The notes under the pieces are model-generated. The model was not told the origin of the DNA and did no database searches. It was given only the letters and a program-made list of their open reading frames with translations. DNA of 64,000 nucleotides from Siphonodentalium dalli (taxonomy: Eukaryota; Mollusca; Scaphopoda; Gadilida; Siphonodentaliidae). The DNA is taken from the NCBI GenBank assembly GCA_032622095.1, contig CP136061.1, positions 14,585,287 through 14,649,286 of the forward strand, in the 5' to 3' direction. Shown piece after piece: positions 7,481 to 36,539 of the stretch (position 1 is the first letter of the stretch; each line of letters begins with the position of its first letter). A program made the translations under genes and the position numbers.

Positions 7481-7829
7481 TTTTTACGGACGAAATTTGA
7501 TGCATAGGGTATCTCGGTATCCGCTGGGCCGATTTCCCGGTATCCGCTGGGCCGATTTCCACCATTTTTGGGGTGTTGGTGTTTGACCCCACCTGACCTT
7601 AACCTTCAAAATGGTCAATTCAAGGTCAAAGCCCGGACGAAGTCGGGAAAAATGGTCAATTCAATGTCAAATCGGGTAAAACCGGATGGATTTCGACGGG
7701 TACTTTTGTCGGGTACTTTTGTTCGGGCACTGTGTTTTGGGACGGGTCAAATCGTGACCCCACTTGACCTTGGCCTTCAAAATAGACAATTCAAGGTCAA
7801 AGCCCGGACGAAGTCGGGTCACCTTCTAG
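7481..7829 (+). mobile_element. Helitron-like element, B type, 5' truncated
   Basis: The 3' end is clear: a cccggac-gaa-gtcggg hairpin, then tcaccttCTAG at 7826-7829 followed by T. The interior repeats cgggtacttttgt and gaccttgaattg-type modules also found in the elements at 34929-36025 and 60074-60812. No TC 5' end is visible, so the left part is missing. No Rep/helicase is encoded. Confidence 0.65.
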
Positions 7830-7841
7830 TTGATATATATA

Positions 7842-8347
7842 TCTCATATATATTTTGAAGACCTATGTCTGTTTGTTTGTCTGTCTGTGTGTCTGCCATT
7901 AATACAAATGTACGATTCTCGACCGATCGGGACGAAACTTGGTACGTGTGTGTAGTTTGACCAGGCGGTCGTCGTTGTGGTATTGGCGAGCCCGTGCGGC
8001 GCCCGTGCGGCGCATGCGCAGACGAGATCTCAGAAACGGGTGGAGCTATCGACTTGAAATTTGCTATGTGAATGTATCTTGCCCCGAATACGAATTTTAT
8101 CGGGTCGCCGAGCCCGTGCGACGCCAGCTTCGCGCATGCGCAGACGAGATATCGGAAACGGGTGGAGCTATCGACTTGAAATTTGGTATGTGAATGTATC
8201 TTGCGCCGGATACGAATTTTTTCGGGTCGCCGAGCCCGTGCGACACCAGCTTCGCGCATGCGCAGACCAGATCTCGGAAACGGGTGGAGCTATCGACTTG
8301 AAATTTGGTTTTTGAATAGCCCGGACAACGTCGGGCTCATCGGCTAG
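7842..8347 (+). mobile_element. Helitron-like element, A type, with ~122-bp internal repeats
   Basis: The 5' end TCTCATATATATTTTGAAG is preceded by A. The 3' end has a cccggac-aac-gtcggg hairpin, then ctcatcggCTAG at 8344-8347. The interior has about three ~122-bp units, each with gagctatcgacttgaaattt, a cgggtcgccgagcccgtgcg block and a GCGCATGCGC palindrome. It joins the next element at 8348 with no spacer. The short frames across it, one of 146 codons on the minus strand, simply follow the 122-bp period. The minus-strand element at 36026-36539 has the same structure. Confidence 0.65.
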
Positions 8348-9063
8348 TCTATTATATATTTTGGAAGATCTGTTTGTGTGTGTGTCTGTCTGTGTGATCG
8401 CGATGAACTCGAAAACGGCCGACCCGATTTCGATGAAACTTGGTATGTGGGGTGTTTTCGGCCGGGGGGTGGCATGGTCCTATTGATTTTCAGATCCGAG
8501 GTCAACTTTTCACGTGCCGAGGTCAAATCTGTTTTTACGCCGTTTTGCGCTAATATATTTCAGTTCGGTGCTCACAAATCGATTCGATATAGCGCGAATA
8601 ATAAATTGCCAGTCATATAATTTGCACGGTTAGAATCTGTGGCGCTTCATCTGTCCAGTGATGTATCACACGCCTGTGTACGTTTAAAGTTTCTACCTTA
8701 ATTATCAAGAACGCAGGACCATGCTCCGCTCATCGAAAAACATTCCGTAAATATATTACGCCGTCAACAGATCGTGACGTGATCGCGTTTAACTCTTAAC
8801 CGGCCGATGTCGCGTTAACTCATCACCGACCGAGGTATCCGCAAATGACATTGGGCAATATATATATCTCGGAAACGGGTGGAGCTATCGACTTGAAATT
8901 TGGTATGTGAATGTATCTTGCCCCGGATACGAATTTTATCGGGTCGCCGAGCCCATGCGACGCCAGCTTCGCGCATGCGCAGACCAGATCTCGGAAACGG
9001 GTGGAGCTATCGACTTGAAATTTGGTTTTTGAATATCCCGGACGAAGTCGGGTCACCTTCTAG
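8348..9063 (+). mobile_element. Helitron-like element, B type 5' end
   Basis: The 5' end is TCTATTATATATTTTGGAAG. It continues with gatttcgatgaaacttggta and ends with a hairpin and ccttCTAG at 9060-9063, followed by T. The middle (8530-8860) is unrelated to other Helitrons here and may be captured DNA. The last ~190 bp resembles the end of the A type, including a GCGCATGCGC palindrome at 8970-8981. A (TA)n tract follows immediately. Confidence 0.6.

Positions 9064-9092
<29 letters not shown>
9064..9092. repeat. (TA)n microsatellite
   Basis: A dinucleotide tract directly after the Helitron 3' end. The duplicate at 15682-15715 is longer, so it has changed since the duplication. Confidence 0.9.
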
Positions 9093-9094
<2 letters not shown>

Positions 9095-10259
9095 GAAACT
9101 CGGTACCTAATATACTGGAGGACGTGGATCTTTCTTGCTTATTTTATTTCAACTTTCTGACTGATTCTGAAACTGCCTATACAGCAGGGTGCTCTGCCTA
9201 TCATTAGCTTTTGTCAGCTTCCGGTGGGCAAGACATGGTTCCTCTTATCGTGGAATCAAGTGCCATTGGGCATCCCCCCTTTACTCACATAATGTGGGTC
9301 ATACAAAGCACCATTGGTGAAGTTTCCTCTACCGGAGTCCAAGACAGGGGTGCCTCTACTGTGGGACCGGGATACGAGCATCCCCTGCTCATATATTATG
9401 GGTATCACAAAACTGATATGATATGGAACTCGGTAAACTGCTTTAGATGAGTATTTCGATCATTAGACGTTTGACAGTTAAATTTTGCGAAATTGTGAAA
9501 ATGTATTATCTTAAATATGTGAGTTTCCCATAGGGAGCCTCGCATAAATATAAGTGAACACATTCGTCTAACAATATTTGCATTGACCGTGTAAATCATT
9601 GTATGCTCTTATATGCTTTTATATGCTCCATGCGGAAGACTCTCATATAAAAGAGAATGCACTGGCACGGGATATTTAATGCTGCACCAGCACAACTCCC
9701 GCCATGAACCCACGTGAAAGGGTTAACGAAATGACACGTGCAATTAGAGTTATGTTTCCGTGTTGTTATTGTTAGCGCTGATTGCTGTGTGTGTTCTGCC
9801 CTCGCGGTTGTCGCTGCCGTCCACTCAGCAAGGCTGTTTGCTAGCCAAACACCGTTATTCTTGAAGCTATAATAGACAGGCCAATTCATTGGAATCCGTC
9901 ATGTTATATTGCAACACATATTGACGTGATTTGTGTTTTCCCGCATTGGAAAATCGTCCCAAGACAGTTTACGCATACGAACGGTGAAATTCTCCCCGAT
10001 GTCCCAATCGGGGCCTACAAATCACCGCCCCAACTTTCGGAGATGAATATTGGAGTCGCGATCACGAGAATAAATGTGAAGAATGGCGATACTTCGGTTG
10101 AGGACTCTCGTACTCAGAATGAGACGGAATTAATTCCCAGCAATAATTGGTGGCGTCGTATTTGGTAGATCTTATCTAATAAGATCGCTGAATGATGTCT
10201 GCTCCGAACATTATAGAATATATCTGGCGTGTATAGTTTAGTGATATCAATCGATTAAT
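9093..10259. other. Non-coding part of duplication copy 1
   Basis: No gene recognised. The segment holds the dispersed repeat shared with ~4850-5050 (about 9470-9600). The open frame at 9926-10168 opens with GTG, not ATG, and is unchanged in copy 2 at 16533-16775. Its lack of a normal start and of any family resemblance argue against a gene. Copy 2 lacks about 20 bp present here near 9720-9740. Confidence 0.5.
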
Positions 10260-11480
10260 CACACTGATCGTATATCGGGCCCTCTCGTGAAACATGTGTG
10301 TTGAGTCACGAGTGTTATCGACGTATATCGGCCCCTCTCGTGAAACATGTGTGTTGAGTCACGAGTGTTATCGACGTATATCGGCCCCTCTCGTGAAACA
10401 TGTGTGTTGAGTCACGAGTGTTATCGACTAAGATGTCTGTGCCATGTTGTACGTGAAAGGGGGTCTGATACTCAGCCGTAATGGGCATGGCTCATCCACA
10501 GCACACACATCGGTATATCGACTATTCTCGTGAAGAATGTGTGTTGAATGTGAGTAGTGTTATCGTCTAAGATGTATGTGTCATGTTGTACATGAAATTG
10601 GTCTGAGACTCAGCCGTAATGGGCATGGCTCATCCACAACACACACATCGGTATATCGACTATTCTCGTGAACTATGTGCGTTGAATGTGAGTAGTGTTA
10701 TTGACCACCACGATGCCTGTGCCGTGTTGTACGTGAAAGGGGGTCTGAGACTCAGCCGTAAGGGGCATAGCCCATCAACAGTACACACATCGGTATATCG
10801 ACTATTCTCGTGAAGAATGTGTGTTGCATGTGCATTAGTAGTGTTATCATCTAAGGTGTATGTGTCATGTTGTACATGGATGTGTGTTGAATGTGAGTAG
10901 TGTTATTGACCACCACGATGCCTGTGCCGTGTTGTACGTGAAATGACGGGGTCTGAGACTCAGTCGTAAAAGGCGCATAGTGCATCAACAGCACACTCAG
11001 CATAGTGCATCAACAGCACACTCATCGGCATATCGACTCTGCTCGTGACGTATGTTTGTTGTGAATCACGAGTGGTATCGACAGCAATATGTCTGTGTCT
11101 TGGTGAAAAGAATGAGGTGTGTGGCTCAGTCGTAGTGTGCATAGCTCACCAGGAGTACACACATCGGTATATGGACTGCTCGTGAAGTGTGTGTTTTGAG
11201 AATCACGAGTATTATCGACAAGCTGTATGTCTGCGCCCTGGTGTAGAGAAGGTATGTGACTCAGGCATAGTGTGCATAGGTCGTCAGGAGTACACTCATC
11301 GACATATGGACTCTGTGCGTGGAGTATTTGTGTTCATTGTCACGAGTGTGTCTCGACGACCAGGATGTCTGCGCGATTGTGTAAAGATTACAACCGTTGC
11401 AACAGGTAGGATTTCCGCGAACCAGTCAAAATATGGATACTGTGGCTCGAGGGGCAGGATTTTTACGTTATCAGATTGTA
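10260..11480 (+). repeat. Degenerate complex array in duplication copy 1
   Basis: It starts with three ~54-bp units (tatatcggcccctctcgtga ... gagtcacgagtgttatcgac). These pass into longer units of roughly 130-140 bp that add ctgtgccatgttgtacgtga and gtctgagactcagccgtaa blocks. Units become progressively more diverged to the right. Copy 2 of the duplication has one 54-bp unit fewer and a shorter long-unit section, so unequal exchange continued after the 6.5 kb duplication. Confidence 0.8.
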
Positions 11481-11681
11481 TAGTTGTGTACCAGTAACCA
11501 GTCTATACAACAAGAGACATTTGAGTACACGCGAACGAAAAAAAAACAGACATAAAAGTCGCAAAAACAATGAGAGAGACGACAGCTAGATATCAAGTTT
11601 CATTCACTGAGTAATTGTAGAGACCTTTCGCAAAATCACGAATACGATTACGGATATGGAAATATCCTGCCAGTATAGGCG

Positions 11682-11830
11682 CGTGCATTAACTGTTCATT
11701 GAATCGTAACGATCGCGCGTGCATTAATTGTTCATTGAATCGTAACGATCGCGCGTGCATTAATTGTTCATTGAATCGTAACGATCGCGCGTTCATTAAT
11801 TGTTAATTGAATCGTAACGATCACGCGAAA
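11682..11830 (+). repeat. 36-bp minisatellite, 4 copies
   Basis: The unit reads gcgcgtgcattaattgttca then ttgaatcgtaacgatc. Since 36 is a multiple of three, the minus strand stays open and reads as a 12-residue repeat (HARSLRFNEQLM). I regard that as a by-product of period length. The duplicate at 18107-18330 has 6 copies. Confidence 0.9.
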
Positions 11831-12082
11831 TACGCGGAATTAATGTCATTCACAATAGCGGTTTAAACGACATAGTATGCACTGAATATCAAATTGAATA
11901 TTATTTATGAACTAAATATTAATTTAATATTGTGATATATTGGTGCTTCGGCACGTGTATATCAAATCGTACCATCATCTTCAAAAGATCACACCAATGT
12001 TTGCCCCCGCGGATTTATTTTCTGAAATATCAAGACAATCAAGTTAATTGTGTTTACGAACTGCGTCATTAAATATGGACAA

Positions 12083-12760
12083 TATAATACACCGGATTAT
12101 ACACCGGATTATATACGAATCATTTGTATTATAGACGTGTCCATTTAGCTATAATACACCGGATTATATACGAATCATTTGTATTATAGACGTGTCCATT
12201 TAGCTATAATACACCGGATTATATACGAATCATTTGTATTATAGACGTGTCCATTTAGCTATAATACCCTGGAGTGTATACGAATCATTTGTATTATAGA
12301 CGTGTCCATTTAGCTATAATACACCGGATTATATACGAATCATTTGTATTATAGACGTGTCCATTTAGCTATAATACACCGGATTATAGACGAATCATTT
12401 GTATTATAGACGTGTCCATTTAGCTATAATACACCGGATTATATAAGAATCATTTGTATTATAGACGTGTCCATTTAGCTATAATACACCGGATTATATA
12501 CGAATCATTTGTATTATAGACGTGTCCATTTAGCTATAATACACCGGATTATAGACGAATCATTTGTAGTATAGACGTGTCCATTTAGCTATAATACACC
12601 GGATTATATAAGAATCATTTGTATTATAGACGTGTCCATTTAGCTATAATACACCGGATTATATACGAATCATTTGTATTATAGACGTGTCCATTTAGCT
12701 ATAATACGCCGGGTTATATACGAATCATTTATATTATAGACGTGTCCATTTAGCTATAAT
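12083..12760 (+). repeat. 55-bp minisatellite, 12 copies
   Basis: The unit runs tataatacaccggattata, then tacgaatcatttgtattata, then gacgtgtccatttagc. The first unit has a small internal duplication. Within each unit ataatac and gtattat are inverted and could form a hairpin. Unit variants (tataag, tatagacg, ctggagtg) are in the same order in copy 2 of the duplication, which has only 9 units (18585-19095). Confidence 0.95.
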
Positions 12761-13121
12761 AGAACATTATTCGTGTCTCTTTGAACATGTCTACGTGGAA
12801 CACTAATGAACATGCTATGTATTGTACCGACACTGTATTACAATAAAGACAACTCCTCTCAATTCGGTGTGGAGATTTGATAACTGCATACATTTATAAC
12901 GCGATGAGCGGGGTCAACCTCGCTCATGTCATACATCTCTACTCCGTGTATAGATCATATATATTCCTCCAGTACACAAAACCGGGGATATTTTTATGTT
13001 GTGACATGGAAGTTTATAGCATTGAACAAACAGTGCAGGTAATGTGGTTCGTAGTTAGTACCTGCTCCTGAGTAATGTAGTTCGCTATATAGGTAAAGGT
13101 TCCAACCCGAAGTTGCGCAGT
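12761..13121. other. No gene recognised
   Basis: Non-coding. An aataaag near 12843 could be a decayed polyadenylation-type signal, with nothing upstream to support a gene. Confidence 0.4.
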
Positions 13122-13567
13122 TTAAAGGTACTCAATCCGATTCGACGGTCCCCATAACATCATATTCCAACAACAACAATATTTGTTGAAATGCCGCTTC
13201 AGTTATCAGAATCGATTAATTGCCCAAAAATAATGCTAATCACAGTCAACTATAGTATAATATTGCCCAAAACCTGTTATTTATCAACGTTTTGTTCAAC
13301 GAAATATTGCCGGTTGTCAAATATCAGACACAACAAAAGCCACTGGATTTTAGAGTTATCGATCTTCATCCGCTATCTGGTCAGATAAGTTATTCTCGTC
13401 GACAGTTTACTGGGCCACCGAAAATTAAAATAATAGATTTCAAACGTCGATATCTGATCACTCCTAGCTTTGGTAGGTGGGTTCCTCGACTCGAATCAAA
13501 TATGTTTTACCCCCGAAGCCAAGGAAGTAGTAATTTGCGAGCGTTAATTCGGATTGAGTACCTTTAA
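13122..13567. mobile_element. TTAA-flanked MITE, AGGTACTCAATCCG family
   Basis: The ends are TTAA-AGGTACTCAATCCG and the exact inverse (cggattgagtacct-ttaa). The interior has ttccaacaacaacaa near the left end and cctcgactcgaatcaaat near the right. Related copies are at 19465-19906, 46888-47333, 59206-59651, a diverged one at 47748-48025, and fragments at 45888-46010 and 61047-61233. TTAA at both borders fits a piggyBac-like mechanism, though the tip AGG is not the usual CCC. Confidence 0.75.
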
Positions 13568-14540
13568 GTGACTCTATGAGCGATTTTGCTTTGTATCACA
13601 TACAATCGTGGAACATCTCCCGGGTAATTAATTCAATATTATTGCGACATCGGCTCAAAAAAATCACCGAAAGGCATGTTATCTCGAGCTGGACCAACCT
13701 TTACTGTGATGTATAGTATTGAGGAACCAATATTAACAAAGAAATCTGTTATCTGCAGTTATTGTTCAATGTTATAAAGTTCCATGTCAGACGGGGTCAG
13801 AACATAAAAAAGTTACCGAGTTTTGTACTGGTTGAATATGATCTCTACGGGCGTAGATACAGTAGAGATTCGTGACACGATCTACGGTCAACCTTGTCCG
13901 CCATGACATATTTTTATGGCCGGACTTGACGGATTGACGCTTGAAATATGCTTAGTTTGAGCATTGAAGATCGCAATATCTCTCCAATGAACATTGCACG
14001 CAAGATCGTTGTGATTCACCCGTAAGTATAAAAGGTATGCCTTATCTTCGGACAAAGGAACACCTCGCCACAGGAAGTACGCGGAATTAAATTTCGGTCA
14101 TTCATCAAAGCGTTACAAACGGTCTAATGGGTATCATAGTACCATAAATTGTCAATAAGGGATATTTGTTAATCCAATTTGGATTACCGATATAGCTTCG
14201 TCATTGTACCAAACGATATTTGTTCGTATAACATTGTAGCTTCTGGTTGCAATATATGGGAAATAAACAGCTGGTCGTCAGACGGATCTGTTCGTCTTGT
14301 CAGCTCTAGATGTTACTTATTGTTGATTCGCTGCACCGTGAGCGTGTTCGTGCATGGAGTTGGATTATATATAACATTTCGTTATTTCCATGATCTGGAT
14401 TACGTATATGAATACGGATAGTTTCACAAAATATGAACCAGGCACATGTAAGTACCCACCGAACGTGACGAGCGTGTGTATATTAATTCCATAACATGTG
14501 TATATAAGTGCAAACTATGTATATTGTATTCCCCGTGCCC
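13568..14540. other. Diverged dispersed-repeat sequence within duplication copy 1
   Basis: Two blocks are recognisable. The first, at 13568-13650 (gtgactctatgagcg ... cccgggtaatta), resembles the 67-bp array unit at 36.7 kb. The second, at 13770-13880 (ttataaagttcc ... gatctctacgggcgt), recurs at 29.04-29.15 kb. No gene recognised. The frame at 14179-14421 starts with TTG. Confidence 0.5.
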
Positions 14541-14848
14541 TTAACCCTTTACCCAACAGAACGGCCCTGTGCCAATGCATTCTCTTATATATGCGAGTCG
14601 ACCATAGGTCGCCTCGCATATATAAGAGAATGCATTGGCTTAACACATTAAAAATTATAAAATTGTTAAAGAATGTAAGAAAAAATGGTAACAAGTGTTA
14701 AAAAAAGATTTTGTTTAGGCCAATGCATTCTCTTATATATGCGAGGCGACCTATGGTCGACTCGCATATATAAGAGAATGCATTGGCACAGGGCATAACT
14801 GTAACCATCACAATGTGGTCAATGAACCGGTTCCAATAATATCCATAT
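14541..14848. mobile_element. piggyBac-like MITE with paired 69-bp palindromes, right end lost at duplication junction
   Basis: It begins TTAA-CCCTTTACCCAACA. It carries a 69-bp near-perfect palindrome at 14571-14639 (gccaatgcattctcttatat ... ataagagaatgcattggc) and a second in opposite orientation at 14719-14787. The full version at 20881-21281 ends tgttgggtaaaggg-ttaa. Here the element stops near 14848, exactly where copy 2 of the 6.5 kb duplication begins, so the breakpoint cut it. Confidence 0.85.
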
Positions 14849-14977
14849 TTTTCGGGTCGCCGAGCCCGTGCGACACCAGCTTCGCGCATGCGCAGACCAG
14901 ATCTCGGAAACGGGTGGAGCTATCGACTTGAAATTTGGTTTTTGAATAGCCCGGACAACGTCGGGCTCATCGGCTAG

Positions 14978-15680
14978 TCTATTATATATTTTGGAAGATC
15001 TGTTTGTGTGTGTGTCGGTCTGTGTGATCGCGATGAACTCGAAAACTGCCGACCCGATTTCGATGAAACTTGGTATGTGGGGTATTTTCGGTCGGGGGGT
15101 GGCATGGGCCTATTGATTTTCAGATCCGATGTCAACTTTTCACGTGCCGAGGTCAAATCTGTTTTTACGCCGTTTTGCGCTAATATATTTCAGTTCGGTG
15201 CTCACAAATCGATTCGATATAGCGCGAATAATAAATTGCCAGTCATATAATCTGTGGCGCTTCATCTTTCCAGTGATGTATCACACGCCTGTGTACGTTT
15301 AAAGTGTCTATCTTAATTATCGAGAAGAACGCAGGACAATGCTTCGCTCATCGAAAAACATTCCGTAAATATATTACGCCGTCAACAGATCGTGACGTGA
15401 TCGCGTTCAACTCTTAACCGGTCGATGTCGCGTTAACTCATCACCGGCCGAGGTATCCGCAAATGACATTGGGCAATATATATATCTCGGAAACGGGTGG
15501 AGCTATCGACTTGAAATTTGGTATGTGAATGTATCTTGCCTCGGATATGAATTTTATCGGGTCGCCGAGCCCATGCGACGCCAGCTTCGCGCATGCGCAG
15601 ACCAGATCTCGGAAACGGGTGGAGCTATCGACTTGAAATTTGGTTTTTGAATATCCCGGACGAAGTCGGGTCACCTTCTA

Positions 15681-15681
<1 letters not shown>
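14978..15681 (+). mobile_element. Helitron-like element, B type 5' end (duplicate)
   Basis: Duplicate of the element at 8348-9063, with the same TCTATTATATATTTTGG start, hairpin and CTAG end. The preceding A-type 3' end (CTAG at 14974-14977) was copied with it, so the head-to-tail junction is present, but most of the A element was left behind. Confidence 0.6.
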
Positions 15682-15718
<37 letters not shown>

Positions 15719-16867
15719 GAAACTCGGTACCTAATATACTGGAGGACGTGGATCTTTCTTGCTTATTTTATTTCAACTTTCTGACTGATTCTGAAACTGC
15801 CTATACAGCAGGGTGCTCTGCCTATCATTAGCTTATGTCAGCTTCCGGTGGGCAAGACATGGTACCTCTTATCGTGGAATCAAGTGTCATTTGGGCATCC
15901 CCCCTTTACTCACATAATGTGGGTCATACAAAGCACCATTAGTGAAGTTTCCTCTACCGGAGTCCAAGACAGGGGTGCCTCTACTGTGGGACCGGGATAC
16001 GAGCATCCCCTGCTCATATATTATGGGTATCACAAAACTGATATGATATGGAACTCGGTAAACTGCTTTAGATGAGTCTTTCGATCATTAGACGTTTGAC
16101 AATTAAATTTTGCGAAATTGTGCAAATGTATTATCTTAAATATGTGAGTTTCCCATAGGGAGCCTCGCATAAATATAAGTGAACACATTCGTCTAACAAT
16201 ATTTTCATTGACCGTGTAAGTCATTGTATGCTCTTATATGCCTTTATATGCTCCATGCGGAAGACTCTCATATAAAAGAGAATGCACTGGCACGGGATAT
16301 TTAATGCTGCACCAGCACAACTCCCGCCATGAACCCACATGAAAGGGCAATTAGAGTTATGTTTCCGTTTTGTTATTGTTAGCGCTGATTGCTGTGTGTA
16401 TTCTGCCCTCGCGGTTGTCGCTGCCGTCCACTCAGCAAGGCTGTTTGCTAGCCAAACACCGTTATTCTTGAAGCTATAATAGACAGGCCAATTCATTGGA
16501 ATCCGTCATGTTATATTGCAACACATATTGACGTGATTTGTGTTTTCCCGCATTGGAAAATCGTCCCAAGACAGTTTACGCATACGAACGGTGAAATTCT
16601 CCCCGATGTCCCAATCGGGGCCTACAAATCACCGCCCCAACTTTCGGAGATGAATATTGGAGTCGCGATCACGAGAATAAATGTGAAGAATGGCGATACT
16701 TCGGTTGAGGACTCTCGTACTCAGAATGAGACGGAATTAATTCCCAGCAATAATTGGTGGCGTCGTATTTGGTAGATCTTATCTAATAAGATCGCTGAAT
16801 GATGTCTGCTCCGAACATTATAGAATATATCTGGCGTGTATAGTTTAGTGATATGAATCGATTAATC

Positions 16868-17910
16868 ACACTGATCGTATATCGGCCCCTCTCGTGAAAC
16901 ATGTGTGTTGAGTCACGAGTGTTATCGACGTATATCGGCCCCTCTCGTGAAACATGTGTGTTGAGTCACGAGTGTTATCGACTAAGATGTCTGTGTCATG
17001 CTGTACATGAAAGGGGATCTGATACTCAGCCGTAAGGGGCATAGCTTATCAACAGAACACGCATGGTATATCGACTATTCTCGCGAAGAATGTGTGTTGA
17101 ATGTGAGTAGTGTTATCATCTAAGGTGTATGTGTCATGTTGTACGTGAAAGGGGGTCTGAGACTCAGTCGCAATGGGCATGGCTCATCCACAGCACACGC
17201 ATGGTGTATCAACTATTCTCGTGATGAATGTGTGTTGAATGTGAGTAGTGTTATCGACAAAGATGTCTGTGTCATGCTGTACATGAAATGGGGTCTGAGA
17301 CTCAGCCGTAAAGGGCATGGCTCATCCACAGCATACACATCGGCATATCGACTATTCTCGTGATGAATGTGTGTTGAATGTGAGTTGTGTTATTGACCAC
17401 CACGATGCCTGTGCCGTGTTGTACGTGAAATGACGGGGTCTGAGACTCAGCCGTAAAAGGTGCATAGTGCATCAACAGCACACTCATCGGCATATCGACT
17501 CTGTTGTCGACAGCAATATGTCTGTGTCTTGATGCAAAGAATGAGGTGTGTTGCTCAGTCGTAGTGTGCATAGCTCACCAGGAGTACACCCGTCTGTATA
17601 TGGACTGCTCGTGAAGTGTGTGTTTTGAGAATCACGAGTGGTATCGACAAGCTGTATGTCTGCGCCCTGGTGTAGAGAAGGTATGTGACTCAGGCATAGT
17701 GTGCATAGGTCGTCAGGAGTACACTCATCGACATATGGACTCTGTGCGTGGAGTATTTGTGTTCATTGTCACGAGTGTGTCTCGACGACCAGGATGTCTG
17801 CGCGATTGTGTAAAGATTACAACCGTTGCAACGGGTAGCGTTTCCGCGAACCAGTCAAAATATGGATACTGTGGCTCGAGGGGCAGGATTTTTACGTTAT
17901 CAGATTGTAT
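16868..17910 (+). repeat. Degenerate complex array in duplication copy 2
   Basis: Counterpart of 10260-11480, with two rather than three opening ~54-bp units and fewer long units. Individual long units are not in one-to-one order with copy 1, consistent with unequal exchange. Confidence 0.8.
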
Positions 17911-18106
17911 AGTTGTGTACCAGTAACCAGTCTATACAACAAGAGACATTTGAGTACACGCGAACGAAACAAAACAGACATAAAAGTCGCATAAAACAAT
18001 GAGAGAGACGACAGCTAGATATCAAGTTTCATTCACTGAGTAATTATAGAGACCTTTCGCAAAATCACGAATACGATTACGGATATGGAAATATCCTGCC
18101 AGTATA

Positions 18107-18330
18107 GGCGCGTGCGTTAACTGTTCATTGAATCGCAACGATCGCGCGTGCATTAATTGTTCATTGAATCGTAACGATCGCGCGTGCATTAATTGTTCAT
18201 TGAATCGTAACGATCGCGCGTGCATTAATTGATCATTGAATTGTAACGATCACGCATGTACTAATTGTTCATTGAATCGTAACGATCGCGCGTTCATTAA
18301 TTGTTCATTGAATCGTAACGATCACGCGAA
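18107..18330 (+). repeat. 36-bp minisatellite, 6 copies
   Basis: Counterpart of 11682-11830 with two extra units. The fourth and fifth units are more diverged (ttgatcattgaattg, acgcatgtactaatt). Confidence 0.9.
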
Positions 18331-18584
18331 ATACGCGGAATTAATGTCATTCACAATAGTGGTTTAAACGACATAGTATGCACTGAATATCAAATTGAAT
18401 ATTATTTATTAACTAAATATTAATTTAATATTGTGATATATTGGTGCTTCGGCACGTGTATATCAAATCGTACCATCATCTTCAAAAGATCACACCAATG
18501 TTTGCCCCCGCGGATTTATTTTCTGAAATATCAAGACAATCAAGTTAATTGTGTTTACGAACTGCGTCATTAAATATGGACAAT

Positions 18585-19095
18585 ATAATACACCGGATTA
18601 TACACTGGATTATATACGAATCATTTGTATTATAGACGTGTCCATTTAGCTATAATACACCGGATTATATACGAATCATTTGTATTATAGACGTGTCCAT
18701 TTAGCTATAATACACCGGATTGTATACGAATCATTTGTATTATAGACGTGTCCATTTAGCTATAATACACTGGAGTGTATACGAATCATTTGTATTATAG
18801 ACGTGTCCATTTAGCTACAATACACCGGATTATATACGAATCATTTGTATTATAGACGTGTCCATTTAGCTATAATACACCGGATTATATACGAATCATT
18901 TGTATTATAGACGTGTCCATTTAGCTATAATACACCGGATTATATAAGAATCATTTGTATTATAGACGTGTCCATTTAGCTATAATACACCGGATTATAT
19001 ACGAATCATTTGTATTATAGACGTGTCCATTTAGCTATAATACGCCGGGTTATATACGAATCATTTATATTATAGACGTGTCCATTTAGCTATAA
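18585..19095 (+). repeat. 55-bp minisatellite, 9 copies
   Basis: Counterpart of 12083-12760, three units shorter. First and last variant units are conserved between copies, so the loss was internal. Confidence 0.95.
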
Positions 19096-19464
19096 TAGAA
19101 CATTATTCGTGTCTCTTTGAACATGTCTACGTGAAACACTAATGAACATGCTATTTATTGTACCGATACTGTATTACAATAAAGACAACTCCTCTCTATT
19201 CGGTGTGGAGATTTGATAACTGCATACATTTATAACGCGATGAGCGGGGTCAACCTCGCTCATGTCATACATCTCTACTCCAGTTACGCCCACGGGTATA
19301 GATCATATTCCTCCAGTATAACAACCGGGGACATTTTTATGTTGTGACATGGAAGTTTATAGCATTGAACAAACAGTGCAGGTAATGTGGTTCGTAGTTA
19401 GTACCTGCTCCTGAGTAATGCAGTTCGCTATATAGGTAAAGGTTCCAACCCGAAGTTGCGCAGT

Positions 19465-19906
19465 TTAAAGGTACTCAATCCGATTCGACGGTCCCCATAA
19501 CATCATATTCCAACAACAACAATATTTTTTGAAATGCCGCTTCAGTTATCAGAATCGATTAATTGCCCAAAAATAATGCTAATCACTGTCAACTATAGTA
19601 TAAAATTGCCCAAAACCTGTTATTTATCAACGTTTTGTTCAACGAAATATTGCCGGTTGTCAAATATCAGACACAACAAAAGCCACTGGATTTTAGAGTT
19701 ATCGATCGATCTGGTCAGATAAGTTATTCTCGCTGACAGTTTACTGGGCCACCGAAAATTAAAATAATAGATTTCAAACGTCGATATCTGATCACTCCTA
19801 GCTTTGGTATATAGGTGGGTCCCTCGACTCGAATCAAATATTTTGTATCCCCCGAAGCCAAGGAAGTAGTAATTTGCGAGCGTTAATTCGGATTGAGTAC
19901 CTTTAA
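19465..19906. mobile_element. TTAA-flanked MITE, AGGTACTCAATCCG family (duplicate)
   Basis: Same element as 13122-13567, duplicated with the 6.5 kb segment. It has small deletions near 19705 (tcttcatccgcta missing). Confidence 0.75.
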
Positions 19907-20880
19907 GTGACTCTATGAGCGAGTTTGCTTTGTATCACATACAATCGTGGAACTTCTCCCGGGTAATTAATTCAATATTTATTGCGACATCGGCTCAAAA
20001 AAATCACCAAAAGGCATGTTATCTCGAGCTGGACCAACCTTTACTGTGATGTATAGTATTGAGGAACCAATATTAACAAAGAAATCTGTTATCTGCAGTT
20101 ATTGTTCAATGTTATACAGTTCCATGTCAGACGGGGTCAGAACATAAAAAAGTTACCGAGTTTTGTACTGGTGGAATATGATCTCTACGGGCGTAGATAC
20201 AGTAGAGATTCGTGACACGATCTACGGTCAACCTTGTCCGCCATGACATATTTTTATGGCCGGACTTGACGGATTGACACTTGAAATATGCTTAGTTTGA
20301 GCATTGAAGATCGCAATATCTCTCCAATGAACATTGCACGCAAGATCGTTGTGATTCACCCGTAAGTATAAAAGGTATGCCTTATCTTCGGACAAAGGAA
20401 CACCTCGCCACAGGAAGTACGCGGAATTAAATTTCGGTCATTCATCAAAGCGTTACAAACGGTCTAATGGGTATCATAGTACCATAAATTGTCAATAAGG
20501 GATATTTGTTAATCCAATTTGGATTACCGATATAGCTTCGTCATTGTACCAAACGATATTTGTTCGTATAACATTGTAGCTTCTGGTTGCAATATATGGG
20601 AAATAAACAGCTGGTCGTCAGACGGATCTGTTCGTCTTGTCAGCTCTAGATGTTACTTATTGTTGATTCGCTGCACCGTGAGCGTGTTCGTGCATGGAGT
20701 TGGATTATATATAACATTTCGTTATTTCCATGATCTGGATTACGTATATGAATACGGATAGTTTCACAAAATATGAACCAGGCACATGTAAGTACCCACC
20801 GAACGTGACGAGCGTGTGTATATTAATTCCATAACATGTGTATATAAGTGCAAACTATGTATATTGTATTCCCCGTGCCC

Positions 20881-21281
20881 TTAACCATTTACCCAACAGA
20901 ACGGCCCTGTGCCAATGCATTCTCTTATATATGCGAGTCGACCATAGGTCGCCTCGCATATATAAGAGAATGCATTGGCTTAACACATTAAAAATTATAA
21001 AATTGTTAAAGAATGTAAGAACAAATGGTAAAAAGTGTTAAAAAAAATATTTTGTTTAGGCCAATGCATTCTCTTATATATGCGAGGCGACCTATGGTCG
21101 ACTCGCATATATAAGAGAATGCATTGGCACAGGGCATAACTGTAACCATCACAATGTGGTCAATGAACCGGTTCCAATGATATCCATATTTGTATGGTTT
21201 TATTGAGACAGACCCAAGATAATTTAGGCTGTTGAAGCTTTATTTGGCCGGTTTTGGTCGTTTTGTTGGGTAAAGGGTTAA
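20881..21281. mobile_element. piggyBac-like MITE with paired palindromes, complete
   Basis: Flanked by TTAA at 20881-20884 and 21278-21281. The left end CCATTTACCCAACAGAAC and right end tttgttgggtaaaggg are inverted. Palindromes of 69 bp lie at 20911-20979 and 21060-21128. The right portion has gaaccggttccaatgatatc and ggctgttgaagctttatttg. It encodes no protein. TTAA target and CCC-type tips are characteristic of piggyBac elements. Confidence 0.85.
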
Positions 21282-21473: not shown

Positions 21474-21845
21474 ACCCTGTACCAATGCATTCTCTTATAT
21501 ATGCGAATCGACCATAGGTCGCCTCGCATATATAAGAGAATGCATTGGCCTAACAATTTTTTACAATTTTAATAATTTGTTCTTGTATTCTTTAACAATT
21601 TTATAATTTCACCCATACAGAGACCCAGACAAACATGAGCAGACGACACTCTTCTATATGCTTCTATATATGTGTGGGGCTCCCTGCAGGGTAATGGATT
21701 TTTTTTATTTTATGTGCTAAAAATTGTAAGAAACATTTATTTTAAAAACATGATAAAAAATTGTTAGGCCAATGCATTCTCTCATATATGCGAGGCGACC
21801 TGTGGTCGATTCGCATATATAAGAGAATGCATTGGCACAAGGTAA
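21474..21845. mobile_element. Palindrome MITE, second type
   Basis: 69-bp palindromes at both ends (21481-21549 and 21768-21836) in opposite orientation. The centre contains cacccatacagagacccaga, gagcagacgacactcttcta and ggctccctgcagggtaatgg. The outer tips read ccctgt and acaaggta. The palindromes match those of the TTAA type but the rest differs. The target duplication is not resolved. Confidence 0.8.
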
Positions 21846-23595
21846 AAAAATCCCGACTTCCGACTGGATTTGATAGCAAGAACTTCTAGAATAATTAATT
21901 ATTTCACACAAAACTCTAATCACCAAATTTACTGTCTTGGCTCTAAATGAGAGGAAAATTCATTTATATCATAATGTTGGGTTAGGTTTTTAAATCATTA
22001 TATAGCATCATGCCCCCATATATTAAAATGAACAATAAACAGTCACATATATGTCAGCCCAATGGAAACACATGTTCATATACGGTGTGGTCCACTCAAG
22101 TAGGGAGCAATCAACAATAATTAGGCCACAGTGTTAAGATACATGTATGGTGGTCAGGCAGGTCAGATTTAACTTGGTTATGAACACATGACCCACAACT
22201 CATCTCGGCCCAATTTTTCATTCATCCACAGACATGACAATAATATTGTTAAATGTAGAACACTATTATGTGTAGTTGCCTTTCTAAATGAAAATAATAA
22301 CCAACTTTCATGAATCAATAATAATTAAGTCTCCTTTCATTAAACTTGAGATATGATATCATGGCTATATGAAAATCACTTTTGAAAAAAAAATTATTTA
22401 CAGATATTCTTGGTACCTGAAAATATTGTTCATGCCGTAACTGTAAAGTACACGAGGCTATATTATACGATGGGTCGATGGTTCTTAAATAATGTACCGC
22501 AATAATCGCTCGTACCAAATTGTACAAAGAAATTATGAGCAAATTTTGAGAAAATCAATTTTGAAATAGGTGGCAAAACGTGCGTATGAACCTTAGCATG
22601 GCGCTGGCCAACTAGTCTGTCCGCATAAATCTGAAACTCAATACAACTGGAATTTAAACGATACATCATTTTCTGCTAACAAATATAAAACAAACACACA
22701 AACAAAAAATTCATTCAAGTATACCTGTTAATTAAAATATTCCCAAAACCTCACTCTCATTATTCCAACTCGGTTCCACTGACACATGTATATTCATAGT
22801 ATTCATTCATTATGTCAACCAAGTAGGTGCCTAACAAAGCCTATTAAAAACCAAGTCTGCACACGATGAACGAAACCCAAAAAAGCAATCATATAATCTG
22901 TCACCACATTCAGGAGGCGATAGGAAGAAAGTCAGTCATGACTATATCACCCCTAACAATATACACGTATAGTCTATTCATATTATATTTATTTGTAATT
23001 GTACTTTCAATGTGTGTATATTGTAAATAAAATTATCCTATCCTTCAAAAGATTTAATACAACAACAGTACATGCATAGTAATCTAGGTATAGTTTCTGA
23101 TTTGTTAGCCAGACATAGGTGACAGTTTTTTTCAGCAGGACAATATTAAAAATTAAAAATCTTTTGCAGACATACACAAAGTTTCAATGTGACATAAACT
23201 GAATGCATCACAGCTAGCCACATCACAGCTAACCACATGGGAAGTAAATACTATGTAGTTCCGCTTGCAGCGATCCTATCGCCATTTTCCTGAAAATGAC
23301 ATCCAATTATCTCGCGAGAATAAATCATAGAGCTATTTGAAGGCACATGTCAGTAGCACCGGTTGGAACTACAGAACTGTTCTTGTCATGTCGTTAGCTG
23401 TGGTAAATATGAATTTTATACGCATATTGGCTTTTATGTTATGTCATCTTATGATTTTAAATGACGAAATATCTGCGAAACAATACGTGCATGGCAAACT
23501 TGCCAGCATATAACATGGACGAGAGATCGCACGACTCATTGTGCAGTTAGACAGTTTGAATTATTTTGAATCAGACACATTGTCGTAGCTGATTA
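21846..23595. other. No gene recognised
   Basis: AT-rich non-coding sequence. A gtatattgtaaataaaatta followed by tcctatcctt at ~23015-23045 looks like a plus-strand LINE 3' end (AATAAA then a short tail), but no coding sequence remains upstream. The short frames show no domain. Confidence 0.4.
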
Positions 23596-25752: not shown

Positions 25753-25854
25753 ATCAACCATAACATATTGATCAAGAGAAGACGATAAGGCCCACAAATC
25801 AAACCATATGACATGTTTGACTTTCGATGTTCCCGTCATTCTGGGTGATTTTTT

Positions 25855-26227
25855 TACCCTGTGCCAATGCATTCTCGTATATATACGAGTCGACCATAGG
25901 TTGCCTCACATATATAAGAGAATGCATTGGCCTAACAATTTTTTATCATTTTTTTTAAATAAATGTTTCTTACAATTTTTAGGACATAAAATAAAAAAAC
26001 ATCCATTACCCTGCAGGGAGCCCCACACATATATAGAAGCATATAGAAGAGTGTCGTCTGCTCATGTTTTTCTGGGGCTCTGTATGGGTGAAATTATAAA
26101 ATTGTTAAAGAATACAAGAACAAATTATTAAAATTGTAAAAATTTGTTAGGCCAATGCATTCTCTTATATATGCGAGGCGACCTATGGTCGACTCGCATA
26201 TATAAGATAATGCATTGGCACAGGGTA
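25855..26227. mobile_element. Palindrome MITE, second type, complete
   Basis: Palindromes lie at 25863-25931 and 26151-26219. The tips are TTACCCTGTGCC and the inverse ggcacagggtaa. The centre is inverted relative to 21474-21845 (ctgcagggagccccacacat ... gctctgtatgggtg). TA at both borders could be a 2-bp target duplication, but this is not decisive. Confidence 0.8.
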
Positions 26228-26834
26228 AAAAAAAAACACAGATGCACGATTCGTCAGATCCATATTAAACTTATTTTTGACTCGAGGGTTCAAGGTCGAA
26301 ATTTAAATGCTCTCTTTGTTGATATGCGTAATTGTCATCCGTTGATATACGCCCGACATCCGCTTGGTTTAAAGTGATGTGAAACACTCCGGTTTAGGGT
26401 GATCAAATATAAATTGAGAATAATCTGTACATTTGGTATACCCACAAATAATTAGATTGGACACGAACCCATTAATTGGATATTTTTATTATCAGGATTT
26501 AATTTCAAAAGAGGAAGTGTTAATACGTTTCTAATTATTTTCAGCCTAAAAATTTAAATAGAAGAATTTCCGTCGATCGAAAGAATGCATTAGTTAATAA
26601 AGAGCGTTTTCATTTATGAACGTTTATGGTCGCTTTCGGCGTATTAATTATGGATTGTTTATTATATGGATTACCGCGATGGCGTGCCATACAAATGACG
26701 TTAATTTCAAATATTTTCCATTATCATTTTGCTCGGTAAGCTGAATATTGGCTTATGACATTTTGTCAACATTGATATATAAAATCTAAATGGGCATCTT
26801 TAATGTTAAATCATGCCATGAATCTCTATTCTGA
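26228..26834. other. No gene recognised
   Basis: AT-rich spacer between the MITE and the compound satellite, without identifiable features. Confidence 0.4.
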
Positions 26835-27926
26835 CTATCGCCCACTGTGTATGAACGGTTACCTATCGCCCACTGTGTATGAACGGTTACCTATCGCCCA
26901 CTGTGTATGAACGGTTACCTATCGCCCACTGTGTATGAACGGTTACATATCGCCCACTGTGTATGAACGGTTACCTATCGCCCACTGTGTATGAACGGTT
27001 ACCTATCGCCCACTGTGTATGAACGGTTACCTATCGCCCACTGTGTATGAACGGTTACCTATCGCCCACTGTGTATGAACGGTTACATATCGCCCACTGT
27101 GTATGAACGGTTACCTATCGCCCACTGTGTATGAACGGTTACCTATCGCCCACTGTGTATGAACGGTTACCTATCGCCCACTGTGTATGAACGGTTACAT
27201 ATCGCCCACTGTGTATGAACGGTTACATATCGCCCACTGTGTATGAACGGTTACATATCGCCCACTGTGTATGAACGGTTACATATCGCCCACTGTGTAT
27301 GAACGGTTACATATCGCCCACTGTGTATGAACGGTTACATATCGCCCACTGTGTATGAACGGTTACCTATCGCCCACTGTGTATGAACGGTTACATATCG
27401 CCCACTGTGTATGAACGGTTACATATCGCCCACTGTGTATGAACGGTTACCTATCGCCCACTGTGTATGAACGGTTACCTATCGCCCACTGTGTATGAAC
27501 GGTTACCTATCGCCCACTGTGTATGAACGGTTACCTATCGCCCACTGTGTATGAACGGTTACCTATCGCCCACTGTGTATGAACGGTTACCTATCGCCCA
27601 CTGTGTATGAACGGTTACCTATCGCCCACTGTGTATGAACGGTTACCTATCGCCCACTGTGTATGAACGGTTACCTATCGCCCACTGTGTATGAACGGTT
27701 ACCTATCGCCCACTGTGTATGAACGGTTACCTATCGCCCACTGTGTATGAACGGTTACCTATCGCCCACTGTGTATGAACGGTTACCTATCGCCCACTGT
27801 GTATGAACGGTTACCTATCGCCCACTGTGTATGAACGGTTACCTATCGCCCACTGTGTATGAACGGTTACCTATCGCCCACTGTGTATGAACGGTTACCT
27901 ATCGCCCACTGTGTGTGAACGGTTAC
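26835..27926 (+). repeat. 28-bp satellite, 39 copies
   Basis: The unit is ctatcgcccactgtgtat then gaacggttac. The array length of 1092 bp is exactly 39 units. Most units begin with c; a minority, clustered at about 27200-27430, begin with a (acatatcgcc instead of acctatcgcc). The last unit has gtgtgtg in place of gtgtatg, as does the first 41-bp unit that follows. Confidence 0.97.
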
Positions 27927-28746
27927 CTATCGCCCACTGTGTGTGAACGGTTACATCGGAAGTCGTTCTATCGCCCACTGTGTGTGAACGGTTACATCGG
28001 AAGTCGTTCTATCGCCCACTGTGTATGAACGGTTACATCGGAAGTCGTTCTATCGCCCACTGTGTATGAACGGTTACATCGGAAGTCGTTCTATCGCCCA
28101 CTGTGTATGAACGGTTACATCGGAAGTCGTTCTATCGCCCACTGTGTATGAACGGTTACATCGGAAGTCGTTCTATCGCCCACTGTGTATGAACGGTTAC
28201 ATCGGAAGTCGTTCTATCGCCCACTGTGTATGAACGGTTACATCGGAAGTCGTTCTATCGCCCACTGTGTATGAACGGTTACATCGGAAGTCGTTCTATC
28301 GCCCACTGTGTATGAACGGTTACATCGGAAGTCGTTCTATCGCCCACTGTGTATGAACGGTTACATCGGAAGTCGTTCTATCGCCCACTGTGTATGAACG
28401 GTTACATCGGAAGTCGTTCTATCGCCCACTGTGTATGAACGGTTACATCGGAAGTCGTTCTATCGCCCACTGTGTATGAACGGTTACATCGGAAGTCGTT
28501 CTATCGCCCACTGTGTATGAACGGTTACATCGGAAGTCGTTCTATCGCCCACTGTGTATGAACGGTTACATCGGAAGTCGTTCTATCGCCCACTGTGTAT
28601 GAACGGTTACATCGGAAGTCGTTCTATCGCCCACTGTGTATGAACGGTTACATCGGAAGTCGTTCTATCGCCCACTGTGTATGAACGGTTACATCGGAAG
28701 TCGTTCTATCGCCCACTGTGTGTGAACGGTTACATCGGAAGTCGTT
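27927..28746 (+). repeat. 41-bp satellite, 20 copies, derived from or ancestral to the 28-bp unit
   Basis: The 28-bp unit with an extra 13 bp, atcggaagtcgtt. The length of 820 bp is exactly 20 units. First, second and last units have gtgtgtg; the rest have gtgtatg. It ends in a truncated unit (ctatcgcc) at 28747. Confidence 0.97.
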
Positions 28747-28889
28747 CTATCGCCTGTATAAATCACACTCCACCAGTAAAAAACATGCTCTCACCTGTTC
28801 TGACGGGGAACTTTATTAATATTGCATATATTCATTTGTTAATACTTGTTATTCAATACTATATACTTCACATTAGAAGATGATCCCAG

Positions 28890-30650: not shown

Positions 30651-31708
30651 TGAGGATAATTACACTGGTGAAATATTGCCAGACAGTTAGACATTATCAT
30701 GCAAGAACACTACCAACATCGAGATACTCAGCGGCAACCTCTACCAGAGCGCACCAGTCATACTTCCTTTCTCATATCTCACTCTGTCACCGACTAGGTA
30801 GTGTCTGTGGTTTTTATATTTAGCGCGGGCTATTCCAGCAAAAATGGCGAAAACCGATCGCTCGAAAGTCAAATTTAATATGTGCTTTGAGAACAATTCC
30901 CGCACAAAAAATCTAATGACAAAACGGAGGATCAGAGCGGTAGTTTTGCTGACGATTTTCGCAAGCTACTCGTCAAAATTGCAGCAAATTAGAACTCTTG
31001 TGTTTGACTTGCCACGCAATCACACCGGTTCGTTTAGCTTCCAGTAAGACTTTCCAAACTAAAAGTACCAAATTACACACATTTTAATCGATAGTTTGTG
31101 TGTTTAACACGGGAAGCATGTTGCTCTGTTCGCTTAGTATATATCTTAATATCGTGGAAGTCCACCAAATGTGGGTGAAATGTCGCCGGTAACAGCGGTC
31201 TTACAAAATCATCAAGGGAGGTAAACCCTGCATGGAGTTTGGACTCAGCGGCAGTTATTGAGCACTGACTGTGGAGGACAATAGTATTAAGGGGAATTGA
31301 AAGAAACTCCCCCTCTATTTACAGTTGACCCCTGACGTGACGTGACCATCCAAAGGTCATGCGGGCGACCTTCAGTCAAATTATTTTTAAATTTCGAGAG
31401 ATTAGACGAAACATATCAAGGTAAATATATCAAGGTATTAAATATATTGCTCTGAGTAATGAATTAAAATTTATATTATGAATACAGAGCAAGGATTCAA
31501 CATTTCCTTTTGAAGTGATAGAAGTCGTCGACCGAAACGAATATACAAGTTGCCATGTTTCAAAATAGTATTACAACATAGCAGTTTTGTAGGAATGCTC
31601 CTATTTTCAACCTGTTTGATGGCCATATTGTGCTAAATCTACCAACACTTAGGTTTAATGTGAGGCTTGCAAATCATAAGCCACTTTAACATATACCACA
31701 CCAGACGT
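30651..31708. other. No firm gene; possible short 5' exon near 30844
   Basis: An ATG in aaaaatggcg context at 30844 opens 67 codons of basic protein (MAKTDRSKVKFNMCF...) with no recognised domain, ending at 31047. The aaaATGGCG context resembles a YY1-type site over a start codon, as seen at some animal promoters. There is no downstream splice donor or second exon I can support. Confidence 0.25.
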
Positions 31709-32035
31709 TTAACCCTTTACCCAACAGAAGGGACCTGTGCCAATGCATTCTCTTATATATGCGAGTCGACCATAGGTCGCCTCGCGTATATAAGATAATG
31801 CATTGGCTTAACACATTAAAAATTATAAAATTGTTAAAGAATGTAAGAAAAAATGGTATGGTCGACTCGCATATATAAGAGAATGCATTGGCACAGGGCA
31901 TAACTGTAACTATCACAATGTGATCAAGGAGCCGGTTCCAATGATATCCACATGTGTATGGTTCTATTGAGACAGACCGAAGATATTTTAGGCTGTTGAA
32001 GCTTTATTTGGCCGGTTTGTTGGGTAAAGGGTTAA
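31709..32035. mobile_element. piggyBac-like palindrome MITE with internal deletion
   Basis: TTAA at 31709-31712 and 32032-32035, with the same tips as 20881-21281. The first palindrome (31739-31807) is whole. Only the right half of the second remains (31857-31892, from atggtcgactcgc), so a deletion of about 70 bp removed its left arm. The rest of the right end matches the full element. Confidence 0.85.
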
Positions 32036-34550: not shown

Positions 34551-34837
34551 GGCTATCATAGTATCGATGCGTACAGTCTAATATACACGGATAATGCCAG
34601 CGTGACCTCACTCGTACAATCAGATGTACGTCAGCCTCTATCAAGCAGACTGCCTTCTCTGTACTCTACTATATAAGTACATGTATGAACTAACCTAATT
34701 CATTTGGAGACATCGATCCCTCACAAGTAACTGATATACGTGCCTAAATACTAGAAGCGTGTTCCCCGTGCTTTGCGTTATACACGTTATCAGCATGTGA
34801 AGTTGGGACGGATCTGAATCATGACATGAATATCTAC

Positions 34838-34928
34838 TCTTACTACGCCCCATATATATATCATATTCCACTCTTACTACGCCCCTAAATATCATATTCC
34901 ACTCTTACTACGCCCCATATATATCATA
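34838..34928 (+). repeat. ~34-bp tandem array, host of a Helitron insertion
   Basis: Three units of ttccactcttactacgcccc plus atatatatcata-type spacers. A further partial unit (ttccactcttactacgtccc) continues at 36540, on the far side of the Helitron, so the array was split by the insertion. Confidence 0.9.
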
Positions 34929-36025
34929 TTAGTAGGTGGACCCGTCTTCGTCCGGGCTGTTTCCCCTCTGCTTTTCGGCGAATTGCGCGATTTGACCTTG
35001 AATTGTCCATTTTGAAGGTCAAGGTGAGGTGGGGTCACGATTTGACCCGTCCAAAACACTGCCTGGACAAAAGTACCCGACAAAAGTACCCGTCGAAATC
35101 CATCCGGTTTTACACGATTTGACCTCGAATTGATCATTTTGAAGGTCAAAGTCAGGTCGGGGTCACGATTTGACCCGTCCAAAACACTCAGTGGACAAAA
35201 GTAACCATATGTATCAAATTTCGTCGAAATCTCATCAAAATTCGCGATTTGACCTTGAATTGACCCGATTCCAATGTTAAGGTCACGTCGCACGGGCAAA
35301 TGAATATGCCTATGACACTCCCCATACGAAAGTATCCCTATACACTAATGTTCATCGAAATCCCGTGATACTCGGGCATTCGACATTGAAATGACCCAAT
35401 TTCAAGGTCAAGGTCACGTCGCATGGGCAAATGAATAGGCCCACGCGACTCCCCGGCCGAAAGTATCCTCACATACCAAGTTTCATCGAAATCGGCTAGG
35501 CCGTTTTCGAGTCCATCGCGAACAGACACACACTCGTCCGGGCTGTTTCCCCTCTGCTTTTCGGCGATTTGACCTTGAATTGTTCATTTTGAAGGTCAAG
35601 GTCAGGTGGGGTCACGATTTGACCCGTCCAAAACACTGTCCGGACAAAAGTACCCGACAAAAGTACCCGTCGAAATCCATCCGGTTTTGCCGATTTGACC
35701 TCGAATTGATCATTTTGAAGGTCAATGTCAGGTCGGGGTCACGACTGGACCAGTCCAAAAACACTCAGTAGACAAAAGTAACCCTACGTATCAAATTTCG
35801 TCGAAATCCCATCAAAATTCGCGATTTGACCTTGAAATGACCCGATTTCAAGGTCAAGGTCATGTCGCACGGGCAAATTAACAGGCCCATGCCACTCCCC
35901 GGCCCAAAGTACCCCCACATACCAAGTTTCATCGAAATCGGCTCGGCCGTTTTCGAGTCCATCGCCCTTTATCGAGTCCATACACACACACACAGACAGA
36001 CAGATTTCCCAAAATATATAATAGA
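34929..36025 (-). mobile_element. Helitron-like element, B type, 3' part of a composite
   Basis: On the minus strand it starts TCTATTATATATTTTGGG at 36025 and ends with a cccggac-gaa-gacggg hairpin and ctaCTAA at 34932-34929, followed by T. The interior is a set of ~120-bp modules (accaagtttcatcgaaatcg; caaggtcaaggtca; gggtcacgatttgacc), with two partly repeated blocks at 34940-35310 and 35540-35960. It encodes no Rep/helicase, so would depend on another element. Confidence 0.75.
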
Positions 36026-36539
36026 CTAGCCGATGAGCCCGACGTTGTCCGGGCTATTCAAAAACCAAATTTCAAGTCGATAGCTCCACCCGTTTCCGAG
36101 ATCTCGTCTGCGCATGCGCGAAGCTGGCGTCGCACGGGCTCGGCGACCCGATAAAATTCGTATCCGGGGCAAGATACATTCACATACCAAATTTCAAGTC
36201 GATAGCTCCACCCGTTTCCGAGATCTCGTCTGCGCATGCGCGAAGCTGGCGTCGCACGGGCTCGGCGACCCGATAAAATTCGTATCCGGGGCAAGATACA
36301 TTCACATAGCAAATTTCAAGTCGATAGCTCCACCCGTTTCCGAGATCTCGTCTGCGCATGCGCGAAGCGGGCGCCGCACGGGCTCGCCAATACGACAACG
36401 TTCACCGCCCGGTCAAACTACACACACGTACCAAGTTTCGTCCCGATCGGTCGAGAATCGTAGATTTGTATAAATGACAGACAGACAGACAAACAAACAA
36501 ACAAACAAACAAACAGAGGTCTTCAAAATATATATGAGA
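36026..36539 (-). mobile_element. Helitron-like element, A type, 5' part of a composite
   Basis: On the minus strand it starts TCTCATATATATTTTGAAG at 36539 (preceded by A) and ends with a hairpin and ctcatcggCTAG at 36029-36026, joined directly to the B element. It has three 122-bp units with GCGCATGCGC palindromes at 36109-36120, 36231-36242 and 36353-36364, exactly 122 bp apart. A (gttt)n tract lies near the 5' end. Confidence 0.75.

Follow-up and report, generated by a model that had tools for sequence, protein, structure and literature searches.

Helitron-like elements A and B and their join

The window, by which we mean the whole 64,000-nucleotide stretch of Siphonodentalium dalli DNA analysed here, contains two types of small non-autonomous Helitron-like element, A and B, which have canonical TC/CTRR termini and insertion sites of the A|T type (Table 1). 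Helitrons are rolling-circle transposons, and the non-autonomous ones are moved in trans; A and B are too short to encode Rep/helicase. Eight stop-to-stop open reading frames of at least 130 aa occur in the window, and all three of those tested with Pfam were LINE proteins. A stop-to-stop frame of 1035 aa at 39679-42786 (minus strand) carries LINE endonuclease and reverse transcriptase domains, and a second LINE, interrupted, lies at 49996-52453. The style of the repeats and the LINE-type reverse transcriptases are suggestive of an animal.

Table 1. Positions and strands of the elements, of their joins and of the minisatellite target within the window.
Positions	Strand	Feature	Basis
7842-8347	+	A8, non-autonomous Helitron-like element, 506 bp, preceded by host A	
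8344-8358	+	Spacer-free join CTAG|TCTATTATATA at 8347/8348	Exact motif search
8348-9063	+	B8: B-type 5' end, unique body to 8865, A-like 3' module at 8866-9034, B-type hairpin and CTAG, followed by host T	
14848-15681	+	Duplicated join: A reduced to its 3' 130 bp (14848-14977, same sequence as in A8), then B15 (14978-15681)	
34836-34928	+	31-bp minisatellite holding the 36 kb target site; the joined flanks restore a repeat unit	
34929-35533	-	B36b, second B-type unit, lacking roughly the first 38 bp and fused to B36a; hairpin and CTAA, then host T	
35534-36025	-	B36a, B-type unit directly 3' of A36; stops within its own hairpin (CCCGGACGA)	
36015-36029	-	Spacer-free join CTAG|TCTATTATATA at 36026/36025	Exact motif search
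36026-36539	-	A36, second independent A, 514 bp, 4.5% diverged from A8, preceded by host A	
60074-60812	+	B60, solitary B with A|T flanks, ending in CTGG; control without an A neighbour	

The left end reads TC in all five cases (A8, A36, B8, B36a and B60), and the 3' ends conform to CTRR, being CTAG in A8, A36 and B8, CTAA in B36b and CTGG in B60. Folding of the last 45 nt with RNA energy parameters predicted a stem of 5-6 bp that ends 10-11 nt before the 3' terminus at six of the six ends folded. A generic scan for a perfect stem of at least 7 together with CTRR returned no site, but as the stems here are of 5-6 bp the scan was too strict and is uninformative on other families. The outer host bases are A...T at all three loci (the pairs at 8 kb and 36 kb, and B60 by itself), the elements lying between A and T with no duplicated target, and the T-rich (T|T) insertion sites of the Helentron/HINE type are thus not seen here. 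An Rfam search gave 0 matches at the gathering score, pattern scans of viral contigs gave 0 loci, and a literature search for three element sequence strings found no mention of them; the single hit among genome contigs, a match of 21 bases in an Ignavibacteriaceae MAG (L001), was taken as chance, its other matches to the window being of at most 25 bases.

Type A starts with TCTCATATATATTTTG, contains a GTTT/GTCT microsatellite and 122-bp internal repeats, and closes with a GCCCGG-loop-TCGGGC hairpin followed by TCATCGGCTAG; A8 and A36 are identical at 483 of 506 aligned columns. Type B starts with TCTATTATATATTTTG, contains a GT-rich microsatellite and closes with the CCCGGACGAAGTCGGG hairpin and CTRR, the hairpin of B36b carrying one change, in the loop-side stem. 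Over their first ~45 bp the two types are alike (84.8% over 46 columns), from which it follows that their left ends are related; the similarity is short and 5' only, and the pairs were thus rejected as a rolling-circle tandem array of one element. A B-type fragment at 7584-7829, whose recognisable left end is absent and whose similarity may by eye start near 7460, has hairpins at 7632 and at 7803 and carries a CTAG of its own (7826-7829), which stops 12 bp short of A8; within 1.3 kb, three Helitron 3' ends follow in succession.

The bodies of the B elements are heterogeneous. B8 and B36 are alike only in their first ~142-160 bp. Compared by blastn with B36 and B60, with E allowed up to 1, the B8 body at 8508-8865 gave nothing beyond 12 bp in length. 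The A-like 3' module of B8 is 97.0% identical to A36 over 169 columns and is followed by a B-type end. B36 is an imperfect head-to-tail B~B fusion, of the same family yet inexact, with its join near 35533/35534, and as it consists of two fused B-type units the 36 kb locus is to be read as A|B~B. Across this fusion (35520-35545), CCCGGACGA is joined to GTGTGTGTCTGTTCGCGATGG on the minus strand, the 3' half of the hairpin and the next left end being absent. Internal repeats of ~130 bp are present in B36 and B60, and the body common to these elements is 88.7% identical to B60 over 373 columns in B36a and 89.3% over 503 columns in B36b; both B36 units have an extra stretch, GCCGAAAAGCAGAGGGGAAACA, before the hairpin that is absent from B60.

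An earlier note on this DNA had held that the CTAG of A is joined straight to the start of B at three sites, and the join CTAG|TCTATTATATA is indeed exact at 8347/8348 (+), 14977/14978 (+) and 36025/36026 (-). The 15-mer CTAGTCTATTATATA has three exact matches in the window (8344-8358 and 14974-14988 on the plus strand, 36015-36029 on the minus strand) and a fourth, at 55321-55335 (minus strand), with 2 mismatches, near which A or B similarity was looked for and none found. In shuffled sequences the mean was 0.27 matches when up to 2 mismatches were allowed, and a count of four was reached in 0 of 100.

The join at 15 kb is, as the same note proposed, the product of duplication. A tandem duplication of ~6.6 kb copied 8218-14849 to 14848-21190 (+/- two bases); on the left the break falls within A8, so that the A at 15 kb is truncated and starts at 14848, and there is short T-run homology at the break. 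The duplicate copies differ by a mean of 1.5% substitutions over 29 windows of 130 columns, a mean that leaves out the tandem arrays at 10.2-12.76 kb. A palindromic, MITE-like repeat family sharing GGTCGCCTCGCATATATAAGAGAATGCATTGGC (14541-14850, 20881-21190, 57858-58164, 21474-21852, 25847-26233, 54365-54598 and 31708-32035) has one copy at the duplication breakpoint.

Since the 15 kb join belongs to the duplication, the independent loci are two, at 8 kb and 36 kb. At both, the sequences on either side of the join are whole elements; the two pairs lie in opposite orientation, and their 500-bp outer flanks show zero similarity on each side at E 1e-3. The alignment between the loci starts at the host A adjoining the first T of A. 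The claim that the 36 kb locus is independent is thereby borne out, and the long shared flanks that would have meant one ancient event are absent within 500 bp at this threshold. The window therefore holds, at two independent loci, non-autonomous Helitron-like elements of two types that are joined cleanly and with no spacer.

Target sites and the origin of the join

The A+B pair at 36 kb interrupts a unit of the 31-bp minisatellite between A and T. Joining the flanks produces a 28-mer that differs from each of two neighbouring units at 2 positions, none of them beside the join; it is from these neighbouring units that an empty site is available, and for the 36 kb locus only. The pair (34929-36539) thus sits in a single target site, as had been supposed. 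However, the same picture results when A inserts into the A|T formed at B's left edge, and a single target site is as such no proof of joint arrival. Two other abutting arrays, both of high copy number, are found at 26835-28754, one with 40 units of 28 bp and the other with 20 units of 41 bp, the longer unit being the 28-bp unit plus 13 bp.

A Helitron that occupies an AT site rebuilds A|T at its own 5' edge, and a second canonical insertion there yields exactly the join observed. Under the account that we favour, B would have inserted first, between a host A and T, and its first base, T, would together with the host A have re-formed an A|T target exactly at its left edge. A would have inserted there later, in the canonical manner, its 3' CTAG meeting the TC of B with no spacer and the outer A|T flanks being kept, and the same sequence of events would have taken place separately at the 8 kb and 36 kb loci. 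We regard it as somewhat probable that the join arose in this way, A having inserted canonically, and more than once, at the left edge of a B that was already there. That the body of B36 is also that of the solitary B60 speaks for this account. The ends, the flanks, the empty site at 36 kb, the unrelated outer flanks and the unrelated B bodies are observed; what we infer is that B preceded A, that the enzyme acted in trans, and that left ends already present are preferred as targets.

The join had previously been taken as what rolling-circle read-through would leave, a circle or concatemer ligating the end of one element to the start of another. Precise CTAG|TC circle junctions do form experimentally with Helraiser, as described in parts of PMC5876387 and PMC4778049 (in the former, of 2018, 49% of sequenced circles had precise junctions), and the imperfect B~B fusion in B36 is the kind of same-family join that such a process could make. 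However, one circle repeats one element, and its read-through gives A-A or B-B, so that an A-B join is not its product; the joined elements differ in body and hairpin, and among the ends found in the window there is no A-A join and no exact B-B join. Read-through is consequently very improbable as the source of the A-B join. Head-to-tail joins are cited as support for rolling-circle transposition in the relevant part of PMC5876387, which the present case need not be: because a Helitron rebuilds the AT target at its own left edge, only same-element joins speak for read-through. As such, the earlier interpretation stands in its description (Helitron-like elements, spacer-free head-to-tail arrangement, an independent 36 kb locus and one target site there), while its reading of the join as a sign of circular or concatenated intermediates is not supported, given that A and B are different elements and that canonical insertion of A gives the same sequence with the outer A|T flanks.

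Canonical insertion at a left edge does not by itself account for how often the two types meet. The A copies of both independent loci (2/2 in the window) abut a B left end, and two of the three independent B left ends carry an A, B60 being a B alone. If the AT sites of the window (n=6642, two orientations) were hit uniformly, the probability of both A copies falling at one of three B left ends would be ~5e-8, a post hoc figure that assumes uniform targeting. On this figure random insertion is insufficient and some preference has to be assumed as well; one for resident left ends would account for the 2/2 association with no need of a common dimer. It is conceivable, and we advance this tentatively, that the transposase prefers resident Helitron left ends as targets, perhaps because it nicks them at the start of transposition, the nick there yielding an intermediate that accepts another CTAG 3' end. 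Were this true, different Helitrons would inherently come to be stacked end to end, and such stacks would be a source of chimeric elements; should the 2/2 association hold genome-wide it would point to left-end targeting and to a route to composite Helitrons. No statement of such a preference was found in the Helitron literature searched, most subscription papers lying outside it.

Divergence between the loci and possible joint movement

The same 2/2 association is also the strongest point for a mobile composite, whereby A and B would have become neighbours once, the transposase would have passed the A terminator and run to that of B, and A+B would have moved as a unit, the B body at 8 kb being replaced later. 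Bypass of the 3' end is documented for Helraiser in the part of PMC4778049 concerned with it. A and the 5' end of B align between the 8 kb and 36 kb loci as a single block (91.3% over 666 columns), the rate-corrected divergence is compatible with such a history, and B8 and B36a are identical over their first 17 bp, where B60 differs at 1; over the first part of the core, B8 differs from B36a at only 2/49 but from B60 at 5/49. This closeness near the join gives a hint that may point to a shared dimer. Against it stands, above all, that the B bodies are unrelated past ~160 bp, which obliges the composite to undergo an extra body replacement. Across the whole core the three B elements are about equidistant (9/89, 11/89 and 9/90), and of the sites in the 90-column core, 0 unite B8 and B36a to the exclusion of B36b and B60, and 1 groups B36a with B36b. 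Of the earlier suggestion that the dimer moved as one unit, the single target site at 36 kb thus holds good, but the movement itself would need replacement of the B body at one locus and has 0/90 core sites uniting B8 with B36a; we consider it possible but rather unlikely.

Divergence might be expected to settle the order of arrival. The raw divergence is 23/506 between A8 and A36 vs 28/161 between the 5' ends of B8 and B36 (Fisher p 1e-6; 0.03 with microsatellites removed, and 0.002 for the A half adjoining the join); the A copies differ by 4.5%, and 5' ends of B from different loci are 16-19% apart, which is what a greater age of B would lead one to expect. However, the tandem duplication, which serves as a same-age control, has the same tilt, with 0/130 in A vs 6/161 in the B 5' end, and likelihood-ratio tests corrected by the duplication are null (p 0.47 and 0.86; 0.066 with the 130-bp A calibration only). 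As the B 5' end is more diverged even at the same age, the age argument fails, and divergence was rejected as a clock for B being older than A. Calibrated on the duplication, it does not decide for or against a travelling dimer either.

End-to-end Helitrons in other genomes

End-to-end arrangement of Helitrons is already known from maize and bats, and the pairs described here are a further instance. The nearest case is the maize pair of Du et al. 2008 (PMC2267711), in those parts of the paper that treat it: two dissimilar Helitrons with CTAG directly on TC, for which consecutive insertions are argued. The direct CTAG-TC contact, the G/T junction, the dissimilar bodies and the discussion of insertion at a host A plus element T are shared with our pairs; unlike them, the maize elements carry gene fragments, whereas the elements here are short and repeat-bearing, with the same A type at two B-type ends. 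Du et al. give two orders. In one, the second element enters to the right of the first, at a non-canonical G|T site. In the other, which is a precedent for the account that we favour, the insertion is canonical, its target being the AT that host A and element T make up between them, and some lines afterwards lost the right element cleanly. In their line survey the left element is alone in three lines (McC, W22 and W23) and the right alone in none, and the order is left open by the authors. Taken at face value, the survey would favour the non-canonical G|T insertion, the opposite order to that which we favour. Applied to our loci, it would mean that A was already in place and that B entered at the G|T of its right edge; the maize lines and the place of this order among the two readings kept by Du et al. 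speak for it, but A|T is the site of B60, which stands alone, and of both pairs at their outer ends, and A looks younger than B, a weak test. Such an origin is therefore improbable here.

In the passages of PMC2267711 that cite them, Pritham and Feschotte (2007) are credited with perfect head-to-tail junctions in Myotis bats, and with the expectation that a host A should lie between independently inserted elements. Where an element inserts at a left edge that expectation does not hold, as the host A remains outside the pair. The perfect junctions are a likeness to our loci; the bat examples are tandem repeats of Helitrons, whereas A and B are different elements. Copies of HelibatN inserted directly beside another Helitron are described in the portion of Grabundzija et al. 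2016 (PMC4778049) that surveys new 3' ends in bats, and distantly related Helitrons directly adjoining one another in bat and maize in the corresponding portion of Thomas et al. 2014 (PMC4067079). The same two alternatives as for maize are given, in the relevant section of a Fusarium paper (PMC5148889), for a triple tandem in Metarhizium acridum, which unlike our pairs consists of non-canonical fungal Helitrons of one type. In wheat (PMC13286980), the sections concerned confirm AT preference and circles and report no genomic tandem of the tested element.

With respect to internal structure, Cg_HINE of the Pacific oyster (PMC7492417, in its account of these elements) is similar to A and B in being modular, with a left flank, a GTCY-type microsatellite, satellite-like central repeats and a 3' palindrome, and in that modules are shared between families. 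It differs in being of the Helentron type, with subTIRs and oligo-T insertion sites, as opposed to the TC/CTRR ends and A|T sites found here.
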